Translations under genes and position numbers: made by a program
In this document: positions 52,650-63,521 of the stretch, in pieces
Position numbering within the stretch: position 1 is the first letter of the stretch
Layout: each line of letters starts with the position of its first letter
DNA from: Gilliamella bombi
GTDB lineage: Bacteria; Pseudomonadota; Gammaproteobacteria; Enterobacterales; Orbaceae
Reading direction: 5' to 3'
DNA: 64,000 nucleotides
Assembly: GCF_900103255.1 (NCBI RefSeq)
Contig: NZ_FMWS01000037.1
Location: 1 to 64,000 of the forward strand
The notes under the pieces: model-generated
What the model was told of the DNA's origin: nothing
Seen by the model: the letters and a program-made list of their open reading frames with translations, nothing else
Databases searched by the model: none

Positions 52650-53353
52650 ATGGTTAAATATCAAGAAGTTGCAAAAAAATCAAACAGATGATTTATCAAA
52701 AACAACTGTCCAAAGGCACTCAGCTTGCTAATATTGACGGGTTAATTACTCAATATCAGGTCAGTCGTAGTACAATTGTTAAAGCGCTTAATTGTCTTGA
52801 GCGGCAGGGCGTTATTTATCAAGTGCAAGGTAGTGGTATTTTTGTTCGTGAACGTAAAAAAAGAGGCTATCTCAATTTTTTGCAAAGTCATGGTTTTACT
52901 GTCGATCTAGAAGATGTTTATGGTTCTTCGACAGTACTTAATGTTGATATCATCAAGCCCAGTGCAAAAGTTAAAGAAAATCTACAATGTGATGATAACG
53001 AAGAAGTCTATTTTGTTAAAAGATTGCGCTATGTTGAAGATAAATTATATGGCTTAGAACAGTCATATTACCGTAAAAAGTTAATTTGTTATTTAAATAA
53101 AGAAATTGTAGAAAACTCAATTTTTAATTACATTCAGGAAAATTATAATCTTAATATTGGTTTTTCTGATAAATATTTACAGGTAATAAAACTTGATGAA
53201 AAAATGGCGCCATGTTTAGGATTGCAACCTGGTGAACCTGCACTTTGTGTTGAAGAAATATTTTACACCTCATCAGGTGAACCTTTTGATTTTTCAAAAA
53301 TCATTTATCATTACGAAAATGCAAGATTTTGTATACAAAATCACTCAAAGTAA
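52650..53353 (+). CDS. GntR/UTRA transcription regulator, frameshifted in an A7 tract
   Basis: The product should be a GntR-family repressor with a UTRA sugar-phosphate sensor domain, likely controlling the divergent beta-glucoside operon. The unbroken frame from 52688 lacks the first winged-helix residues. The missing part (MVKYQEVAKK) lies in another frame from the ATG at 52650. One extra A in the A7 run at 52673-52679 joins them and restores the usual GntR start (AKKIKQMIYQKQLSKGTQL). The HTH (LITQYQVSRSTIVKALNCLERQG) and UTRA domain (about 80-230) are intact. The shift may be a real mutation, transcriptional slippage or an assembly error. Without it, an N-terminally short protein could still be made from 52688, but helix 1 would be damaged. 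Confidence 0.75.
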
Positions 53354-53438: not shown

Positions 53439-56400
53439 TTAAATTTCACCACCAACACCTTTAAACTTTTCAACCAATGCGGCGATCTTTTCAAAGACTC
53501 GGTTCTTTTTAATTAAATATTGAGGATTCAGTGGGCTCATTTTTGGTAAAATCTCGTTCAACTCTGTGCCGTTTTCGGTTGCATATTTTCGCTTTAATGA
53601 TGAGGCAATATAGCGTTTTGTTACCGCTTCATTTAAATTTTCCTCTTCAATTAAGGAATTAAGCTCTACCTGTAACTCTTGCTGTGCATACAAGAAAAAC
53701 GCATCAATAATCGAGGCTTTATCTGGAATAGCATCAAGATCAGTTTGTTTTATAAACTCTACAACTAGCTCTTCTTTAGCTCGATTTTCTAAGCTTGATC
53801 GAATTAATCGCTTAGCATCTTCGACAATGTCCTGTTTGGTTTTTTCTTGTTTATTTTGTTCATAAATTAACTCAAGAATATAATCCAGATTGATCTCTTG
53901 CGATTTTAATAGATCAATTTCGAAAACCACATCATCCCAGTCAAATCTTTGCTGATCTTGTTGATTGGCTTCTTTTTCTCGGCGTAGCCAATCACGAATA
54001 TCATTATAAGTTGAACGATAATTTTGAATTGTGCGGTCAGTCGGTAGTTTAACTGCTTGCATTTTTTGCAGATCTTCATCAGTCACATAATGCTTATTTT
54101 TAAACGCTAAAACTGCCTGCGCATCTGTCATATCTAATTGTTGGAAATCCTTTAATGCAACAAATTCATCATAATTTTGTAATATATTGTCAGCACGTAA
54201 GTACTCACCAAATAATTTAACAAACTCTTTTTTATCTTTTTCTTTGATAATTTCATCAGGGCGTGGGAACTTTTCTTGTAACTCGGCAACGATGGCTAGA
54301 TAGCCATTGTGGAAATTACCTGAATCTTTATCAGTAAACCCTTCCATGTATTCCTTAAAGCTTTTTTCTAACACTACTTCATGAGTATTACTTTTACCAA
54401 ATGTTTTTATTGCATCAATGGTCGCTTGTTCTAAATCACGAAACGCCACAATATTACCAAAGGTTTTGGTGGCATTATAAATACGATTGGTGCGTGAAAA
54501 GGCTTGAATTAACCCATGATACCGTAAATTTTTATCAACAAATAAAGTATTAAGCGTTGGCGCATCAAAGCCAGTTAAAAACATACCAACCACAATTAAT
54601 AAATCAATTTCTTTATTTTTTACTTTTAAAGACAAATCGCGATAATAGTTCTGAAACTGCTCACTGCTGACATCATAGTTTGACTTAAATTCCTGATTAT
54701 AGTCATCAATAGCCATTGCTAAAAACTCTTTAGCACTTTGATTTAAGGCATCTATTTCAAAACTTTCATCGGCAAAATTACCTTGTGCATCTTGTTCTTC
54801 ATTAGCAGAATAAGAAAATATCGTGGCTATTTTTAACGGCTGATTTGCACCTTCTTGTAATTTTTTGAATGATTCATAATAGAGTTTAGCCGCATCTACA
54901 CTACTCACTGCAAACATGGCATTGAACCCTTTACTTTTGCCCATTAATCGGTGGGTTTTTTGTTTAAAATTATTCAGAATATATTGTGTGATTTGCTCAA
55001 TACGGTTTGGGTGGAGCAATGCTTTTTTATTTTCAGCAGCGCTGAGTTTTTCAAGATTTTGTTCTTGCTCTATCGATTTAAAATTAGGACGCACATCATT
55101 ATAGTCAACTTTAAATTTTAGTACCTTTTCGTCACGAATTGCATCGGTTAATACATAAGCGTGCAGTTCACGACCAAAAACATCCGCTGTAGTTTGCGTT
55201 CCGATTGCGTTAGTATGCATAATCGGCGTACCAGTAAAACCAAATTGGTAATATTTTTTAAATTTTCGCTTTAAGTTTTTTTGAGCTTCGCCAAACTGGG
55301 AGCGGTGTGCTTCGTCAAAAATAAATACAACGTGTTTATCATAGATCGCTAAGTTATCGTCGCTTTTGATCAAGTTATTAAGTTTTTGAATGGTAGTAAC
55401 AATAATTTTATTATCGGTTTTCTCAATATTGCGCTTAAGCCCTGCGGTACTATTTGAACCATTCACACTATCTTTTGAAAATTTTTGATACTCTTTCATG
55501 GTTTGATAATCCAGATCTTTACGATCCACCACAAAAAAAACTTTATCAATAAATTCTAATTCGGTTGCAAGGCGTGCCGTTTTGAAACTGGTTAATGTTT
55601 TGCCAGAACCTGTTGTGTGCCAAATAAAGCCACCACTTTGTAAGCTACTCCACTTTTTGGCATGATAAGCGCTAATGATTTTCCATAATATGCGCTCGGT
55701 GGCGGCGATTTGGTAAGGGCGCATAATTAACAATGTGTCATTCACATCAAGCACCGAATAAGTCAATAACACATTTAACAGCGTTCGGCTAGCAAAAAAG
55801 GTTGCGGTAAAGTCTTTTAGATCTTTTATCGGCTCGTTTTTAACATTCGCCCAATTCATTGTAAAATCAAAGCTATTTTTGTCACGTTTAGTCGTGTTAG
55901 CAAAATAGCGCGTATCGGTACCATTTGATATAACAAACAGTTGTAAATATTTAAATAGTGAATTGTCTTGATTAAAGCTCTCTTTACTATAGCGATGCAC
56001 TTGATTAAAGGCTTCACGAATAGCAATACCACGTTTTTTTAGTTCAACTTGAACAAGCGGCAAGCCATTAACTAAAATCGTCACATCATAACGATTTGCA
56101 TAATTACCTGTTTGCTGAAATTGATGGATAACTTGTAATTTATTATTAGTAACCTCTTTTTTATCTAACAACTTGATATTTTGAATATGGCCGTCATCAA
56201 AAACAAAATCGTAAATATGATCGTGGTGGATTTTGCGACTTTTATCGATCATTGATTCATTGGGTTTATCCAAATACTCTAATACAAAACGTTGCCATTC
56301 ATCATCCGTAAATTGCATTTTGTTTAGTGTTTGCAACTGCTCACGAATATTGGCTAATAACTTTTCATGTGTATTTAAATTCGGTAAGTATTCATAACCT

Positions 56401-56540
56401 TGTCGAGCTAAATCATGAATAAATTCATTTTCTAAATCCGTTTCAGTCTGATAAACAGCAGCCGATTCTTCAAGTTTGTTGTAGTTATCTAAAATAATAT
56501 AGCTATTGGTTTCGGCGATGGGGGTTGTATAAGTCGTCAT
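53439..56540 (-). CDS. hsdR: Type IC restriction enzyme, HsdR subunit
   Basis: HsdR is the motor and nuclease of a type I system; with HsdM and HsdS it translocates DNA and cuts far from the site. The 1033-residue protein has a RecB-like nuclease ([21 protein letters not shown], about 148-170, PD-ExK), Walker [10 protein letters not shown] (about 309), motif [11 protein letters not shown] (about 408) and motif VI-like [10 protein letters not shown]. Length and sequence are close to EcoR124-type HsdR, so family IC. It is the last gene of hsdM-hsdS-prrC-hsdR; 12 bases separate it from prrC. A GGA ribosome-binding site is present. Confidence 0.93.
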
Positions 56541-56552
56541 AGTCTATTCCAG

Positions 56553-57653
56553 CTATTTAAAATTATAATTTTCGAGCAAATGATTAAGTAAAAAGGCAAC
56601 AATCTGCTTTTCAGGCTCGGAAGGTTCAGGGGGCATTTCATTGGATAATTTTGAATGACTTGTAAAATTGATAATTCGTGTTAAATAAACTTGTTTATCG
56701 TCAGGCAATAATTCTGACCATTGCGGATAGCCTAAAAAACCAGCGGTTTTTTCATATAAGTTACGTAATAGGGTAAAATGATATTTTTCAATTTTTTGTT
56801 CGCGAATGGCTTGTTGTAAAATATCTTTTAAATAAAGATGATAAGAAAAACAGTGATTTGAATCGCCTTTTTTATCTTCTAATGCAAATTTACCGTCCTC
56901 AAATCGTCTTAAAATATAACCATTTTTTAAACCTAATTCATTATAAAGCACATTATAAAACAGCGGGTTATGGGTCGTAATAATAAATTTAATATCAGAT
57001 TCACAGGATTTGATTAATTGGGCAATATCTACCGCCAATTGGATAAGGTGATTTTCGTCCAATGAACTGACGGGATCATCAATAAAAATATAGCGTAAAT
57101 GGTCAAATTCATTAGTCGAGCGTTCGCTTTTGTCAGTAATATTGCGCTCTGCAATAACTAAGTTAATCAGCGTGAAAAAAAGACTCCAAATTAAATTGTT
57201 TTCTTCTCCTTTAGAGATTTTAATATTATCAATACGCTGATCATTATCGCCTGCTAGCGAAAAAGTAATAGCAGAAAAATCCTTATTGAAATGCGGCAGT
57301 AATCTTTGATGAGTATAGGATTGAAAGTAACGAACAATATTTTGGTCTTGTCCTTGGTCTTTTAAAATCCAGTCAGTAAATGAGTTAGGTTGAATGATTA
57401 ATTGATGTTCACCCTCTTGGTGTTTATCATTATCCCAAGCAAATAAATCTTCAGTAAAAGCGTTATAGTAAAGGATTTTGTGCCTTGTTAAGGCTGCATT
57501 ATTTTCTTTATCGTCTTTATGCTGCGATATAATTAAATTCTTAAATGTTTGAGATAAACGTGTTTTACCCGTACCGTTAAAGGCATAGATTAATTGGGTT
57601 TTTTTATCATTTTTATCCAGCTTTTCAGCAATATTCCTTAATGTGGTATTCAT
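56553..57653 (-). CDS. prrC: PrrC-type anticodon nuclease
   Basis: PrrC stays silent while bound to the type IC complex and cuts tRNA-Lys at the anticodon loop when a phage inhibitor disturbs that complex. The 366-residue protein has an ABC-type ATPase part: Walker A AFNGTGKT (24-31), KILYYNAFTEDLF, signature-like SKGEENN and Walker B YIFIDDPVSSLDENH. The C-terminal part has KKGDSN, near the tRNA-contacting region of E. coli PrrC. R297, E301 and H333 are spaced exactly as the catalytic Arg320-Glu324-His356 triad (4 then 32 residues). The gene lies between hsdS and hsdR, as in the E. coli prr locus. The identity rests on remembered sequence and the motif spacing. Confidence 0.88.
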   Translation of the reverse strand: MNTTLRNIAEKLDKNDKKTQLIYAFNGTGKTRLSQTFKNLIISQHKDDKENNAALTRHKILYYNAFTEDLFAWDNDKHQEGEHQLIIQPNSFTDWILKDQGQDQNIVRYFQSYTHQRLLPHFNKDFSAITFSLAGDNDQRIDNIKISKGEENNLIWSLFFTLINLVIAERNITDKSERSTNEFDHLRYIFIDDPVSSLDENHLIQLAVDIAQLIKSCESDIKFIITTHNPLFYNVLYNELGLKNGYILRRFEDGKFALEDKKGDSNHCFSYHLYLKDILQQAIREQKIEKYHFTLLRNLYEKTAGFLGYPQWSELLPDDKQVYLTRIINFTSHSKLSNEMPPEPSEPEKQIVAFLLNHLLENYNFK

Positions 57654-57673
57654 CTTTTTATAACTCTATCTTA

Positions 57674-58846
57674 TTATTCTTGCACTTTCGGAAAGTCTAA
57701 TAACAAATTCCGATAATACTCATATTGTTTTTGACGTAATTCAATTTCACGTGGTAAACCCTCTGTAATGGAATTTGTTAGCGCATCGAATTTGTCTAGG
57801 ATTTCGACAATACGGGCTTGTTCCTTGAGTGGGGGAATTGGGATTTTAAACTGCTTTACTTTTACATCTGAAATTGAAGGATATGCAGTACCACTTTGGT
57901 TTTCATTAACATAATTATTAAATCGTGTAGATGAAATATTGTAGTAAATCCATTTAGGTAGAATATAATTACGATTTGCTCTTAAAACACAATAGCCTGT
58001 GCTTGCAATGTTCTCCGAAAACTCTTTCTCTATTAATGTGAATCTTTGCAGTGTTGGACGAGTCGTTGCAAAAATAACATCATTTTCTTCAACAATTTTT
58101 TGTGCTCTACTTGGTGCATTTATAGCTGTTATTTCAGTTGTTCCAATAATTGATTTAGTTTCACGACTAACAGAGGTTAAATCAATATATTTGTAAGCAC
58201 GATCTGTTTCTTTCCATTTTATATTGCTTGTTGGTAAAGTTATATTTTCTAAAGCCTTCCACTCAACTTCATCCTCTTTAAAACTCAATAATTTATCCCG
58301 ATAATAGTTGTATTGTTTTTTCCGTGTAGTAAGCTCTGCTGTGAGCTCTGCTGTGAGCTCTGCTGTGAGAGCTGTGAATGTGTCCAAAATACAGACTATT
58401 GCAGTTTGAACGTGTAGAGTGGGGATAGGGATCTGAAATTGTTCAAGCATTGGTTTTCTGATTGAAATAGAGGTAGCGCCAACACATTTAGTCAAAATAT
58501 ATTGTTTAAATTTATCACACATTAAATAATATAAATATTTTGTATTTAGTTTATTTGAAAATACATGAATTCTGTATGCTCTTTGATGTAATGCATACTT
58601 CCCCTCAATATAATGGAAAATATCGCCAATGCCACCTTCTCCTGGAATGACTATTGCGGTTTCATCAAACTGAAATTTTTTTGATTTTAATATGTTTTTG
58701 GAACGAACATAAAATGGATATTGTCCATGTTCATCTTCATCCTGTCTATTTGCATTACCTGTTCCAACTTCTGCCACTTCCCCCAGCGTCTTCCACTCAA
58801 CCTCAACACCTTTTAATAACTCAGTTATATTATTACGCATAATCAT
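57674..58846 (-). CDS. hsdS: Type IC specificity subunit HsdS
   Basis: HsdS sets the bipartite DNA target. The 390-residue protein has two target recognition domains (about 1-150 and 200-345), each followed by a conserved helical region ([13 protein letters not shown] in the middle; [13 protein letters not shown] at the end). Before the central helix is a [16 protein letters not shown] stretch, three TAEL units encoded by 12-bp repeats. In the EcoR124/EcoR124II pair, two or three such units set the recognition spacer to 6 or 7 bases. The start overlaps the hsdM stop (ATGA). Target sequence cannot be read from this. Confidence 0.92.
58331..58366 (-). repeat. Three 12-bp repeats in hsdS (TAEL units)
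   Basis: Three copies of the 12-mer GAGCTCTGCTGT (plus-strand reading; the first copy has A for G) encode the TAEL repeats between the two halves of HsdS. Loss or gain of one unit by recombination keeps the frame and changes the distance between the two recognition domains. Confidence 0.9.
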
Positions 58847-60408
58847 CCCTCAATCTCCGCCACAATTGCGTCAATTTGGGATCGTAAGCTATCAATTTTA
58901 GCTACGGTATCTTTTATTTCAGCATTAATCTGGGTGATATCAATCACTTCACGGGTATCTTCGGCTTCAACATACGAACTGACTGATAAATTATAGTCAT
59001 TTTGCGCAATGGTTTGATTATCAACTGATTTAGCAAAATATTCGATATCTTGCTTGCTAGCAAATACTTGCATAATTTCTTGAATATGTTCATCAGTGAG
59101 CACATTATTATTGGTCTCTTTTTTAAACAGTTTACTAGCATCAATAAATTGTGTTGTTTTGACGGTTTTATTTTTGGCAAGCACCAAAATATTAACCGCA
59201 ATCGATGTGCCATAAAATAAGTTTGGTGCGAGCGAGATTACGGTTTCAACAAAATCATTATCCACCAAATATTTGCGAATTTTTTGTTCCGCACCACCTC
59301 GATAAAATATCCCCGGAAAGGTAACAATTGCAGCTCGCCCACACTCGGACAGGTAACTTAGTGCATGCATAATAAAGGCAAAATCGGCTTTGGATTTTGG
59401 TGCTAGCACGCCAGCAGGTGCATAGCGGTCATCATTGATTAAGGTTGGATCATCACTACCAATCCATTTAATTGAATAAGGTGGATTAGAAACGATTGCA
59501 TCAAATGGCTTTTCGTCGCCAAATTTTGGATTAAGTAGCGTGTCCCCTAAAGCAATTTCAAATTTATCATAGTTGATATTGTGTAAAAACATATTCATTC
59601 GAGCAAGGTTATAGGTAGTATGATTGATTTCTTGACCGAAGAACCCATCCTCAATAATATGTTCGTCAAACTGTTTTTTCGCTTGTAACAATAAAGAGCC
59701 TGATCCTGCCGCTGGATCATAGATTTTATTGACCTTTTTTTGATTATGTAAGGCTAATTGCGAGATCAGCTTGGACACATTCGGTGGCGTAAAAAACTCG
59801 CCTCCTGATTTACCAGCATTCGAGGCATAATTAGAAATCAAATACTCATAAGCATCGCCAAACAGATCGATTTGATTGTCTGCAAAATCACCAAAATCCA
59901 GTTCGGCCACACCATTAAGTACTGCCGCTAACCGTTTGTTTTTATCGGCAACTGTATTACCTAATCGGTTACTGGTAGTATCAAAATCGGCAAATAATCC
60001 TTTAATATCGCTTTCTGAAGGGTAACCATTGGCTGAGCTTTCAATCGCATTAAAAATATTTGCCAAGTCAGTATTTAAACTTGGATTGGTATTAGCTTCA
60101 GCTACAATTTTACAAAATAATTGGCTAGGATAAATAAAATAGCCTTTGGTTTTTATTGCGTCTTTTTTTATTTCATCGATAATGACATCGTCGGATAATG
60201 TGCTGTAATCGATACTCTCATCGCCACCTTCAATATAATTGGCAAAATTCTCACTAATAAAGCGATAAAACAAAGAACCAAGTACATATTGTTTAAAATC
60301 CCAACCATCGACAGCTCCACGGACTTCGTCGGCAATTTTCCAAATTTGTCGTTGTAGTTGATCGCGTTGTTGCGTTTCGGTAATTGATTTAGCGTTACTA
60401 GATGTCAT
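58843..60408 (-). CDS. hsdM: Type IC modification subunit HsdM
   Basis: HsdM methylates adenine N6 as part of M2S1, and the R2M2S1 complex restricts. The protein is nearly as long as EcoR124 HsdM (about 520). It has the N-terminal helical domain ([22 protein letters not shown]), SAM motif [12 protein letters not shown] (about 231) and motif IV NPPYS (about 306). The ATG at 60408 is used; an in-frame TTG three codons earlier is closer to a GGA and could be the real start. It heads the four-gene leftward operon. Confidence 0.93.
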
Positions 60409-60417
60409 ATTTTTCAA

Positions 60418-60768: not shown

Positions 60769-61937
60769 GTTCACTGCCGTGTAGGCAGTTTAGAAAACCG
60801 AGCATCAATCATGACAAAACAATTCAAAAGTTCACTGCCGTGTAGGCAGTTTAGAAAATTCAAAGTCATAATCATAGTACACCAATTCGGTTCACTGCCG
60901 TGTAGGCAGTTTAGAAATTTAACTGACACTGTTGACGTTGTTCCCGCTGGTTCACTGCCGTGTAGGCAGTTTAGAAAAGTTGTTTTACCAGTTTTGTTAT
61001 AGTCATCAAGTTCACTGCCGTGTAGGCAGTTTAGAAACTATCGCTTTTGCTTGGGCATTACACGAAACTGTTCACTGCCGTGTAGGCAGTTTAGAAATGT
61101 TTCAGAAAGGTATTCCATCTCTTTTTCAGGTTCACTGCCGTGTAGGCAGTTTAGAAAAGATTGACATGGCATTTTTCCAAGCTGATGAAGTTCACTGCCG
61201 TGTAGGCAGTTTAGAAATCAGTTAAACACCAGTAGCTTTTTTCTATTTGGTTCACTGCCGTGTAGGCAGTTTAGAAAGTGGCCGATTATTTAGAATCAAA
61301 ATGCTCGGAGTTCACTGCCGTGTAGGCAGTTTAGAAAATCAATACAGCGGCTAGAAAAGACTACCAAACGTTCACTGCCGTGTAGGCAGTTTAGAAATAT
61401 TTGATCTCTGATAGCTGAAAAAGCTTTACGTTCACTGCCGTGTAGGCAGTTTAGAAACTATGATCGGCTGGGTATGTCCATATGTTGCCGTTCACTGCCG
61501 TGTAGGCAGTTTAGAAAACCATATGGAGATTTAACTAGTGAACATAATGGTTCACTGCCGTGTAGGCAGTTTAGAAATGCGGCTAAAAAAGCTATTAATG
61601 CGCTAGCTCGTTCACTGCCGTGTAGGCAGTTTAGAAAGATGATTTAACTTCTTTTCCTTTTCTTGAGTGGTTCACTGCCGTGTAGGCAGTTTAGAAACAA
61701 CGTCTAGCGTTCTATCATCAGCCCAATAAGTTCACTGCCGTGTAGGCAGTTTAGAAATCTAATTGTTATTGATGTTACTAAACCTCCAGGTTCACTGCCG
61801 TGTAGGCAGTTTAGAAACACCCGGTAAAGAAATTGCCATTCACATTAGCGTTCACTGCCGTGTAGGCAGTTTAGAAAGTTATAATCATCTTCAGCCATTC
61901 CGCACATCAGTTCACTGCCGTGTAGGCGGTATTTTGT
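60769..61937 (+). CRISPR. Type I-F CRISPR array, 20 repeats and 19 spacers
   Basis: The 28-base repeat begins GTTCACTGCCGTGTAGGCAG and ends TTTAGAAA; its CTGCC/GGCAG stem with a 5-base loop is the Cas6f type. Repeats start at 60769, then every 60 bases from 60830 to 61910. Spacers are 32 bases; the first, next to the leader, is 33. Nineteen repeats are identical. The last (61910-61937) differs in its 3' third, as usual at the distal end. All spacers look different and none matches this window by eye. There is no cas gene in the window; the first 2 kb to the right holds an adhesin instead. Confidence 0.97.
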
Positions 61938-62309: not shown

Positions 62310-63415
62310 ATGCATTATCATTTTAGACACCAGACACCAGACACCAGCACTGGCAAACCTATGTCTTAAATTTATCAGATAAACACACTAGTTGGATTTT
62401 TAACCCCGCCACGTTTATATCTTCAAAGTTATTTTTCAAATTATTATCAAAATTATTCCGAAAAGTTCCGTTAGTATTGGTATTGTTATTATTGTCTTCT
62501 TTATGGAATGTACAGGCGAATGGCAAAAAGGTTCGAACGGGTAATCGTAGTGATGCAATAATGCTACAACTGTCGCAGCCAGTTATCAATTATGTAAGAC
62601 CGAATCTAATTTTGGGTAAAGATAAATACGCAGGCCTAGCTGACATATGGAATCCTAAGAAGGGCTTTTTAGTTCAATCAATCAATCCTGAATCATACAA
62701 TTTAAATTTCCCGACTACAGGAGCGCATAATTTATATTTTGATTTACTTATAACAGGAATAGATGTGAGAGACTTGACATGGGAACCGGTCACGCATGAG
62801 GGAATTACAGCAACAGTGACAAATGATGTAGTTTGTGACAGTTGGATTCCTTATGAGGATTGTAAAGAGTGGGTAGCACGTGTTAAGTTAACAGGTCCAG
62901 TGGCAAGATATCGATGGGACAATCCTAAACCTAGTGTAGTTAAGCCAAGATTACCGCAAACGTTTGAGTTAGTGGGTAGAGATATATATGGCGTTGAGGT
63001 AGTAAAATATGGATTTGTGTTGAAGCAGTGGTTCATCCATCGGGGTGATAAGAGCTTGTATTATGATATGTTAATATGGTGTCATAATATAGGCTACCAT
63101 ATGCCAAGGGTCAGAGATTTAACCAACGCGGTTAATGTTAACGGAGGTCTTCTTCCTCCTGTTGTAGGTGCTAGCCCATCTTCACCATATAATAATTACA
63201 TGCGTCATATTGATGCCGGCTTTTTTTCCGAGTGGGGCGTCGTGGACTTCTACAAAGGTGCCGACTTTGGCTTCAACTACCACTTGTCGAGCGAGGATGA
63301 AAATGATAAGAATACTTCCTTCATGTACGTTGTGGACTCGGCCTATGGCGATATTAGGACGGGCAGCTCAATGGGCAGCTTTTATGTTGTTTGCGTCTCG
63401 GACCTCAGACCTTAG
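62310..63415 (+). CDS. Adhesion-domain (DUF823-like) secreted protein 2, out of frame at a 7-bp repeat tract
   Basis: This is the paralogue of the gene at 441-2050. The open frame runs from 62327 to the stop at 63415. A simple call would start at a TTG at 62477 within the signal peptide. The ATG at 62310 (GGGTGA upstream) reads MHYHFRHQTP and stops at 62367-62369. One more 7-bp unit, or one unit in all, joins it to the frame with HWQTYVLNLS, a Leu-rich signal segment and a cleavage site near VQA. The mature protein is one adhesion domain: IWNPKKGFLVQS, NFPTTGAHNLYFDL, GITATVT, LPQTFELVGRDIYGVEVVKYGFVLKQWF, FFSEWG and a final VVCVSDLRP. There is no membrane anchor. It matches the family better than copy 1 does. 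Confidence 0.7.
62326..62346 (+). repeat. Three tandem GACACCA units (putative phase-variation tract)
   Basis: Three perfect GACACCA copies lie 16 bases after the ATG at 62310, at the same codon position as GGCACAA in adhesin 1. The two units differ at two of seven bases, and all three copies within each locus agree. Four copies or one copy give an open frame into the adhesin. Confidence 0.75.
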
Positions 63416-63493: not shown

Positions 63494-63521
63494 GTTTACC
63501 GCCGTGTAGGCAGTTTAGAAA
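63494..63521 (+). repeat. Solitary degenerate type I-F CRISPR repeat
   Basis: These 28 bases match the array repeat except at positions 4 (C to T) and 7 (T to C), so one pair of the stem is lost. It is 78 bases after the adhesin 2 stop and in the same orientation as the array. No second repeat follows at a spacer's distance within the window. The surrounding gap 63416-63765 has no gene. Confidence 0.9.

Follow-up and report, generated by a model that had tools for sequence, protein, structure and literature searches.

A prr-type restriction locus with a predicted PrrC anticodon nuclease in Gilliamella bombi and its relatives among bee-gut bacteria

What is a gene resembling a tRNA nuclease doing inside a restriction operon of Gilliamella bombi, and how did that operon come to be shared beyond its genus? 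The operon, hsdM-hsdS-prrC-hsdR, lies in a 64,000-nucleotide stretch of this genome (contig NZ_FMWS01000037.1, positions 1 to 64,000; hereafter the window). Our reading, to which we give a probability of roughly 0.85, is that the operon is a prr-type, two-layer phage defence and one of a clade of bee-gut loci that spread across class and phylum, exchanging HsdS recognition domains and keeping PrrC, HsdM and HsdR. An earlier note, made from the letters of the window, had proposed a prr-type locus in a likely insect gut symbiont; as to the host this is right, the genome sharing its genus with records named Gilliamella.

The four genes form an intact operon of tandem open frames on the minus strand (window 53439-60417), as follows.

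58843..60417, minus strand: hsdM, type IC methyltransferase subunit, 524 amino acids, TTG start (TIGR00497, 4.3e-197; EcoR124II M, 906 bits)
57674..58846, minus strand: hsdS, specificity subunit with two recognition domains, 390 amino acids (Methylase_S, 3.1e-41)
56553..57653, minus strand: prrC, latent anticodon nuclease by homology, 366 amino acids (PADLOC PrrC, 8e-141)
53439..56540, minus strand: hsdR, type IC restriction and translocation subunit, 1033 amino acids (TIGR00348, 1.7e-193; EcoR124 HsdR, 1608 bits)

The coordinates of the earlier note hold, save that hsdM may begin at a TTG 9 bp upstream of the in-frame ATG at 60408 that the note had taken as its start. hsdM and hsdS overlap by 4 bp, and gaps of 20 bp and 12 bp separate hsdS from prrC and prrC from hsdR. 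Terminator matches numbered 8, compared with 4.6 in shuffles (standard deviation 2.1), and promoter matches were no more numerous than in shuffles (31 versus 34.0). For comparison we used the best 80 of 395 confirmed stretches from GTDB species genomes, picked by likeness to the window PrrC; the conservation counts below therefore describe nearer relatives, and a more distant orphan prrC could escape them. The order M-S-C-R on a single strand is kept in 75 of these 80 loci, the remaining 5 being cut by contig ends. Gene order and family matches thus agree on a locus of the prr type.

By its sequence, the third gene is PrrC. Residues 3-366 of its product match the PADLOC PrrC model (no NCBIfam family matched), and the protein is 59% identical to a 396-amino-acid E. 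coli protein annotated 'anticodon nuclease'. The latter carries D222, D287, R320, E324 and H356 at the residue numbers published for the prototype (passages of PMC2610378 and PMC3014915), making it a fair stand-in, and it was used for the triad comparison rather than the prototype's own record. In the pairwise alignment, R297, E301 and H333 of the window PrrC fall on R320, E324 and H356, with spacings of 4 and 32 in both proteins, and D264 falls on D287, which a passage of PMC3014915 places in contact with the wobble base. The ABC-ATPase positions 45-47, 171-172, 222 and 251 of E. coli PrrC (Walker A, signature, Walker B/D-loop and linchpin His) are likewise kept. Both features that the earlier note had claimed for this gene, the ATPase motifs and the Arg-Glu-His triad with its spacing, are thus borne out by alignment. 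The note had named failure of R297, E301 or H333 to align with the PrrC triad as a refutation, and all three residues did align. The residues concerned lie as follows.

57561..57581, minus strand: Walker A of PrrC, FNGTGKT, residues 25-31 (sequence and alignment)
56862..56864, minus strand: codon of D264, corresponding to D287 (pairwise alignment)
56763..56765, minus strand: codon of R297, triad residue corresponding to R320 (alignment)
56751..56753, minus strand: codon of E301, triad residue corresponding to E324 (alignment)
56655..56657, minus strand: codon of H333, triad residue corresponding to H356 (alignment)

Conservation of these residues extends across the relatives. The triad is invariant in all 81 aligned PrrC proteins (the window's and 80 relatives'), as are D287 and N289; at position 288, 79 proteins have Ser and 2 have Ala. 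K284 and Y294 are also invariant, and the GDSN motif is kept in 79 of 82 aligned rows. The recognition stretch 284-294 reads KKGDSNHCFSY in the window and KYGDSNKSFSY in E. coli, so that the D287 motif is kept. In the predicted structure (mean predicted local distance difference test score 79.3), residues 1-267 align with the heads of Rad50 and SMC proteins (best Z 12.9, 213 residues, root-mean-square deviation 3.8); the fold matches listed span these residues alone and barely reach the C-terminal nuclease domain. PrrC is assigned to the HEPN RNase superfamily in a passage of PMC3710099. No PDB chain matched PrrC by sequence at E 0.01, and a profile search gave nothing better than 0.23. RloC was considered as another identity and rejected: the gene sits inside an hsd operon, and its product, with 366 amino acids, two cysteines and no CxxC, has no zinc-hook insert, the predicted model showing no long paired helices inside the ATPase head.

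The partner of PrrC is a type IC enzyme, as the earlier note had supposed, since HsdM and HsdR are both EcoR124-like over their full length (906 bits to EcoR124II M and 1608 bits to EcoR124 HsdR). In addition, HsdS carries the following repeat.

58331..58366, minus strand: three TAEL repeats in the central helix of HsdS, residues 161-172 (sequence)

Three TAEL repeats are also reported for EcoprrI, and the role of repeat number is taken from a passage of PMC3874165.

The prrC gene is maintained. It is free of internal stops in 8 of 8 copies from the genus and 6 of 6 from Snodgrassella. The ratio of nonsynonymous to synonymous substitution rates (dN/dS), computed against the window for 12 loci (L085 was left out), is 0.13-0.28 for prrC in the eight loci from Gilliamella and Apibacter and 0.09-0.10 in the four from Snodgrassella, compared with 0.04-0.06 for hsdR in 11 of the 12 comparisons, the twelfth being saturated. 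prrC therefore evolves faster than hsdR yet is constrained, under purifying selection.

The earlier note had held a full prr locus in a likely insect gut symbiont to be notable. This did not survive comparison: with 395 PrrC stretches in GTDB species genomes, relatives are widespread, and the locus alone is not notable. PrrC also matched 113 of 72,556 plasmid records (tblastn), and similar DNA is present in 21 of 5,426 E. coli genomes (blastn). Within the family, PrrC occurs in 8 of 44 genomes including the window's, all 8 among the 35 genomes of its genus.

What sets the locus apart is the company it keeps. Among the best 80 relatives, seven Gilliamella loci encode PrrC 89-93% identical to the window's, Apibacter mensalis, a member of the Bacteroidota, 90%, and five Snodgrassella-type Neisseriaceae loci 81-83%; all others reach at most 65%. 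These 13 loci and the window fall on one side of a branch (SH-aLRT, the approximate likelihood-ratio support, 99; stem 0.45) in an 84-protein PrrC tree, a quick tree with SH-aLRT support only and some long branches flagged among its 84 rows. Distribution within these genera is patchy: of 14 Snodgrassella genomes, 6 have the close form (82-84%), as does 1 of 9 from Apibacter (90%). Two other Apibacter genomes encode a relative at 37-38%, and in one more a match of 54 residues is marginal. Bombus hosts are given, in the passages available, for Snodgrassella WF3-3, Nev4-2 and App4-8 (PMC9239279) and for Apibacter mensalis (PMC5913662), and Snodgrassella App6-5 is called a bumble-bee strain in PMC5090037; the other clade members are termed bee gut by genus name or from recall, L086 only by a GyrB 93% identical to that of Snodgrassella.

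GyrB, taken as a core-gene control, diverges much further. Snodgrassella GyrB is 62% identical to that of the window's genome and 52% to the main piece of Apibacter's (the comparison was made from Snodgrassella, so that the Apibacter-Gilliamella pair lies outside it). HsdM, PrrC and HsdR, by comparison, match the window's proteins at 81-90% identity in Snodgrassella and at 90-95% in Apibacter. Being far closer than GyrB, they point to transfer across class and phylum. At the DNA level, Apibacter and G. intestini are 97.7% identical over 2607 bases covering hsdM and a RhuM-like gene, and 95.4% over 4368 bases covering prrC and hsdR; in bins of 250 bases, several reach 99-100%, those of the chassis (hsdM, prrC and hsdR) range over 81-100% and the variable hsdS bins over 53-76%. 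The Apibacter locus is flanked by two 439-bp direct repeats, 92% identical, with an arsC-like gene, which resembles an 'insertion with long target duplication', as the title of a published paper has it. We considered whether the Apibacter copy might stem from contamination and found this unlikely, since its chassis bins are 81-100%, not uniformly 100%, identical to G. intestini and arsC-like repeats stand at its borders; the copy lies on a contig of 192,664 bases whose other genes look bacteroidete by reading. That Apibacter and Gilliamella share one restriction system by transfer has been published before: Kwong and colleagues report one restriction-modification system of strain R-53146 with 97% protein identity to one of G. 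apicola (PMC5913662, section 8), the passage naming neither its genes nor PrrC. That system is probably the prr locus described here. We found no published account of PrrC in Gilliamella, of an anticodon nuclease in Snodgrassella or of restriction-modification transfer between Apibacter and Snodgrassella, in a search outside which most subscription literature lay. A study of 75 Snodgrassella genomes counts 57 transfer events involving Snodgrassella, and the word 'restriction' does not occur in its main text as available (PMC9239279).

HsdS behaves differently from the rest of the operon. PrrC, HsdM and HsdR are 89-98% identical within Gilliamella and Apibacter, whereas HsdS is 37-68% identical to the window's in 12 bee-clade copies, a thirteenth being cut by a contig end. 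We compared the domains of 15 HsdS proteins, 13 from loci with prrC and 2 from loci without; domain borders follow a motif rule, with the midpoint used for the uncultured Neisseriaceae and G029 copies, whose values are approximate. Apibacter has a first domain 97% identical to the one in two Snodgrassella strains, and between Gilliamella and Snodgrassella domain identity rises to as much as 92%. In the corresponding Apibacter-Snodgrassella DNA, one 250-base bin is 98% identical, compared with 68-90% in the hsdM, prrC and hsdR bins. Domains also switch place: Lep-s35 has in first position a domain 94% like the second one of G. intestini, and the uncultured Neisseriaceae one that is 92% like the second of G. 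bombicola. The abstract of PMC3077401 describes comparable domain movement in Helicobacter pylori and two further species. The number of TAEL repeats differs as well, Snodgrassella WF3-3 having two and Nev4-2 three although their first domains (142 amino acids) are identical. As a separate observation, one HsdS (L082:5814-6974) has two recognition domains with 93% mutual identity, and a palindromic split recognition site is predicted for it.

These comparisons suggest a further, tentative proposal, which we hold at less than even odds: that the bee-gut prr locus may be a shared, exchangeable immune module, in which Gammaproteobacteria, Betaproteobacteria and Bacteroidota all retain the same PrrC-HsdM-HsdR chassis and swap HsdS recognition domains drawn from a common pool. 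Unrelated members would then change specificity by recombination, with a dormant tRNA nuclease guarding each version and penalising loss of the restriction enzyme.

How would such a locus work? HsdM, HsdS and HsdR would form a type IC enzyme, by which self DNA would be methylated and unmethylated incoming DNA cut. PrrC would ride on the HsdMSR complex as a latent nuclease, and would be activated when a phage product or other insult disables the restriction enzyme on unmodified DNA. The ABC-ATPase head would then free the C-terminal nuclease, which would cut tRNA-Lys(UUU) beside the wobble base, so that translation would halt and the phage would be contained along with the host cell. Latency, activation, tRNA-Lys cleavage and altruistic arrest, that is, abortive infection, are inferred for the window PrrC by analogy with E. 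coli PrrC, which its linked Hsd proteins keep silent and which Stp, or dTTP, activates together with GTP and unmodified DNA. No PrrC without hsd genes was found among the 80 named relatives' loci (75 complete, 5 cut) or the 8 loci of the genus, and hsdMSR without prrC is present in three genomes of the genus (G003, G028 and G029), a pattern that fits dependence of PrrC on its partner.

The predicted target is present in the host, which has two tRNA-Lys(UUU) genes and one tRNA-Lys(CUU) gene (ARAGORN on 30 kept of 42 Rfam tRNA matches). The UUU anticodon loop, CTTTTAA, equals the E. coli loop. The genome also encodes MnmA and MnmE, which we take to be the makers of the modified wobble base read by PrrC. 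The CUU gene carries the E. coli tRNA-Lys stem and the two UUU genes a GC-richer one (L156, L157 and L173); a 17-nucleotide E. coli-type anticodon stem-loop pattern matched only tRNA-Lys(CUU), with 2 mismatches, and its reversed control also gave one match.

As to the trigger, a search with Stp of phage T4 (taken from the T4 record), allowing E values as high as 10, matched 791 of 50,697 phage records, and most of the names listed are enterobacterial. Enterobacterial phages of 38-50 kb (records H73-H82) gave weak matches (E 0.02-0.5) to its first 18-19 residues, possibly Stp-like peptides outside T4-type phages. PrrC itself had no match in the phage records and matched two IMG/VR contigs at 56 and 60%.

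Several points weigh against a prr-type defence acting on tRNA-Lys. We know of no Stp-bearing phage of this host. Since hsdMSR persists without prrC in three genomes, prrC is dispensable. Residues 284-303 are identical to E. coli at only 12 of 20 positions. The host UUU anticodon stem is richer in G-C than that of E. coli, and the tRNA-Lys(CUU) gene may escape cleavage. Stable anticodon stems are reported to inhibit PrrC in a passage of PMC3014915.

Two of these points, the divergence over 284-303 and the richer stem, bear on a rival that we consider improbable, namely a PrrC-type nuclease whose substrate has moved to another tRNA or another cleavage position, its mechanism otherwise the same. 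Section 33 of PMC3014915 notes that the recognition stretch varies among PrrC homologues and that substrates are expected to vary with it, and both points would suit such a shift. Against it, K284, D287, N289 and Y294 are invariant, GDSN is all but constant and the host anticodon loop is the same as E. coli's. PrrC could alternatively serve mainly to stabilise the locus, as a toxin silenced by its restriction partner such that loss of hsd harms the cell, phage exclusion being secondary. The consistent pairing of PrrC with hsd genes and the existence of hsdMSR without prrC are both what this would predict, although the set of relatives was chosen by likeness to the window PrrC and orphans may be missed. 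We regard it as unlikely: 8 of the 35 genomes of the genus have the locus, and among the prrC-less sites two are empty and four retain HsdR-like fragments. A locus that is patchy and leaves fragments is one that is lost readily.

A third possibility, that an ordinary type IC restriction system carries prrC along as an inactive gene, would account for the three genomes that retain hsdMSR without prrC and for the faster evolution of prrC relative to hsdR (dN/dS 0.09-0.28 versus 0.04-0.06). With open frames in every Gilliamella and Snodgrassella copy examined, dN/dS well below 1 and invariant catalytic residues, we consider this very improbable. A prr-type two-layer defence thus remains our preferred reading.

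The insertion site was compared across the genus. One landmark borders it, outside the system.

52688..53353, plus strand: GntR-family regulator at the border of the insertion site

The prr locus adjoins this regulator in 7 of 8 Gilliamella loci, the contig of the eighth ending first; pyrE lies 12.5 kb further on in the window's genome. Twenty prrC-less sites were examined (18 plus L041 and L044), 7 further prrC-less genomes of the genus lying outside the sample. In two of them GntR and pyrE stand just 80-84 bp apart, one holds hsdMSR without prrC (G003, whose hsdS-hsdR gap contains no clear prrC remnant) and G007 ran off its contig. HsdR-like fragments remain at four: 54 amino acids at 91% identity (G005), 80 at 74% (G021), 49 at 65% (G004) and one at 34-39% (G013), the last two weak. 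The prr locus was probably lost more than once.

Other elements share this neighbourhood; the RhuM-like, RtcB, arsC-like and DUF262-like names are by reading or from papers, without family search. An array of clustered regularly interspaced short palindromic repeats (CRISPR) adjoins hsdM at window 60769-61937, with about 20 copies of a 28-nucleotide repeat at a 60-bp period and a lone copy near 63494-63521. It had no match in the phage records. No adjacent cas gene was found within the window; the genome has a type I-F Csy3 gene at another place (G000:C77). A 312-amino-acid plus-strand frame at window 62477-63415 has no Pfam, NCBIfam or PADLOC match. A 594-amino-acid DUF262-like gene occupies the GntR-pyrE site in three Gilliamella genomes (window 63766 onward, L012:11766-13550; L044:10727-12511; L213). 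Beside the hsdR fragment of G021, a frame of a repeated eight-residue unit (L044:9948-10262) looks like a second, different CRISPR-type array. In G. intestini and Apibacter, hsdM is separated from hsdS by a RhuM-like gene, of which Lep-s35 has a fragment (L079:4798-5799, L081:4759-5763, L082:5613-5738); neighbourhoods of PrrC and RhuM are noted in a passage of PMC3710099. Upstream of hsdM, an RtcB-like RNA ligase gene is present in 3 of 5 Snodgrassella-type loci (L083:2139-3365, L084:2109-3332, L087:2348-3571), and such a ligase could in principle mend cut tRNA.

The mechanism proposed here is textbook; what the locus adds is a natural, partly cultured setting, in which nuclease-guarded restriction is found across class and phylum within one gut habitat. 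With a chassis that is nearly constant and recognition domains that differ, it allows direct tests of PrrC latency under HsdS exchange and of the role of PrrC in persistence. Stp-like peptides and tRNA repair can, moreover, be sought here in phages of a host outside the enterobacteria.

Among known systems, RloC shares with the window PrrC an ABC-ATPase and an R-x3-E...H nuclease (passage of PMC2610378), but has a zinc-hook coiled-coil insert and is seldom linked to restriction-modification genes, neither of which holds for the window PrrC. EcoR124I and EcoR124II share the full-length HsdR and HsdM matches and the TAEL repeats; unlike the window locus, EcoR124I is without an anticodon nuclease, according to a passage of PMC3014915. 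The loci of Apibacter mensalis R-53146 and Gilliamella intestini have the same operon and a PrrC 90% identical to the window's, and differ in another HsdS and the extra RhuM-like gene between hsdM and hsdS; that of Apibacter is in addition bounded by arsC-like repeats, unlike the window's. The E. coli prr locus (EcoprrI and PrrC) shares gene order, type IC subunits, ABC-ATPase motifs, the triad with the same spacing, the D287 motif and, in EcoprrI, three TAEL repeats. Compared with a chromosomal prr-type locus of E. coli, HsdM is 78%, HsdR 70%, PrrC 59% and HsdS 34% identical. The window PrrC is shorter (366 versus 396 amino acids), mostly through the absence of a 16-residue stretch close to the N-terminus, and it would meet a tRNA-Lys(UUU) whose stem is GC-richer than that of E. 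coli.

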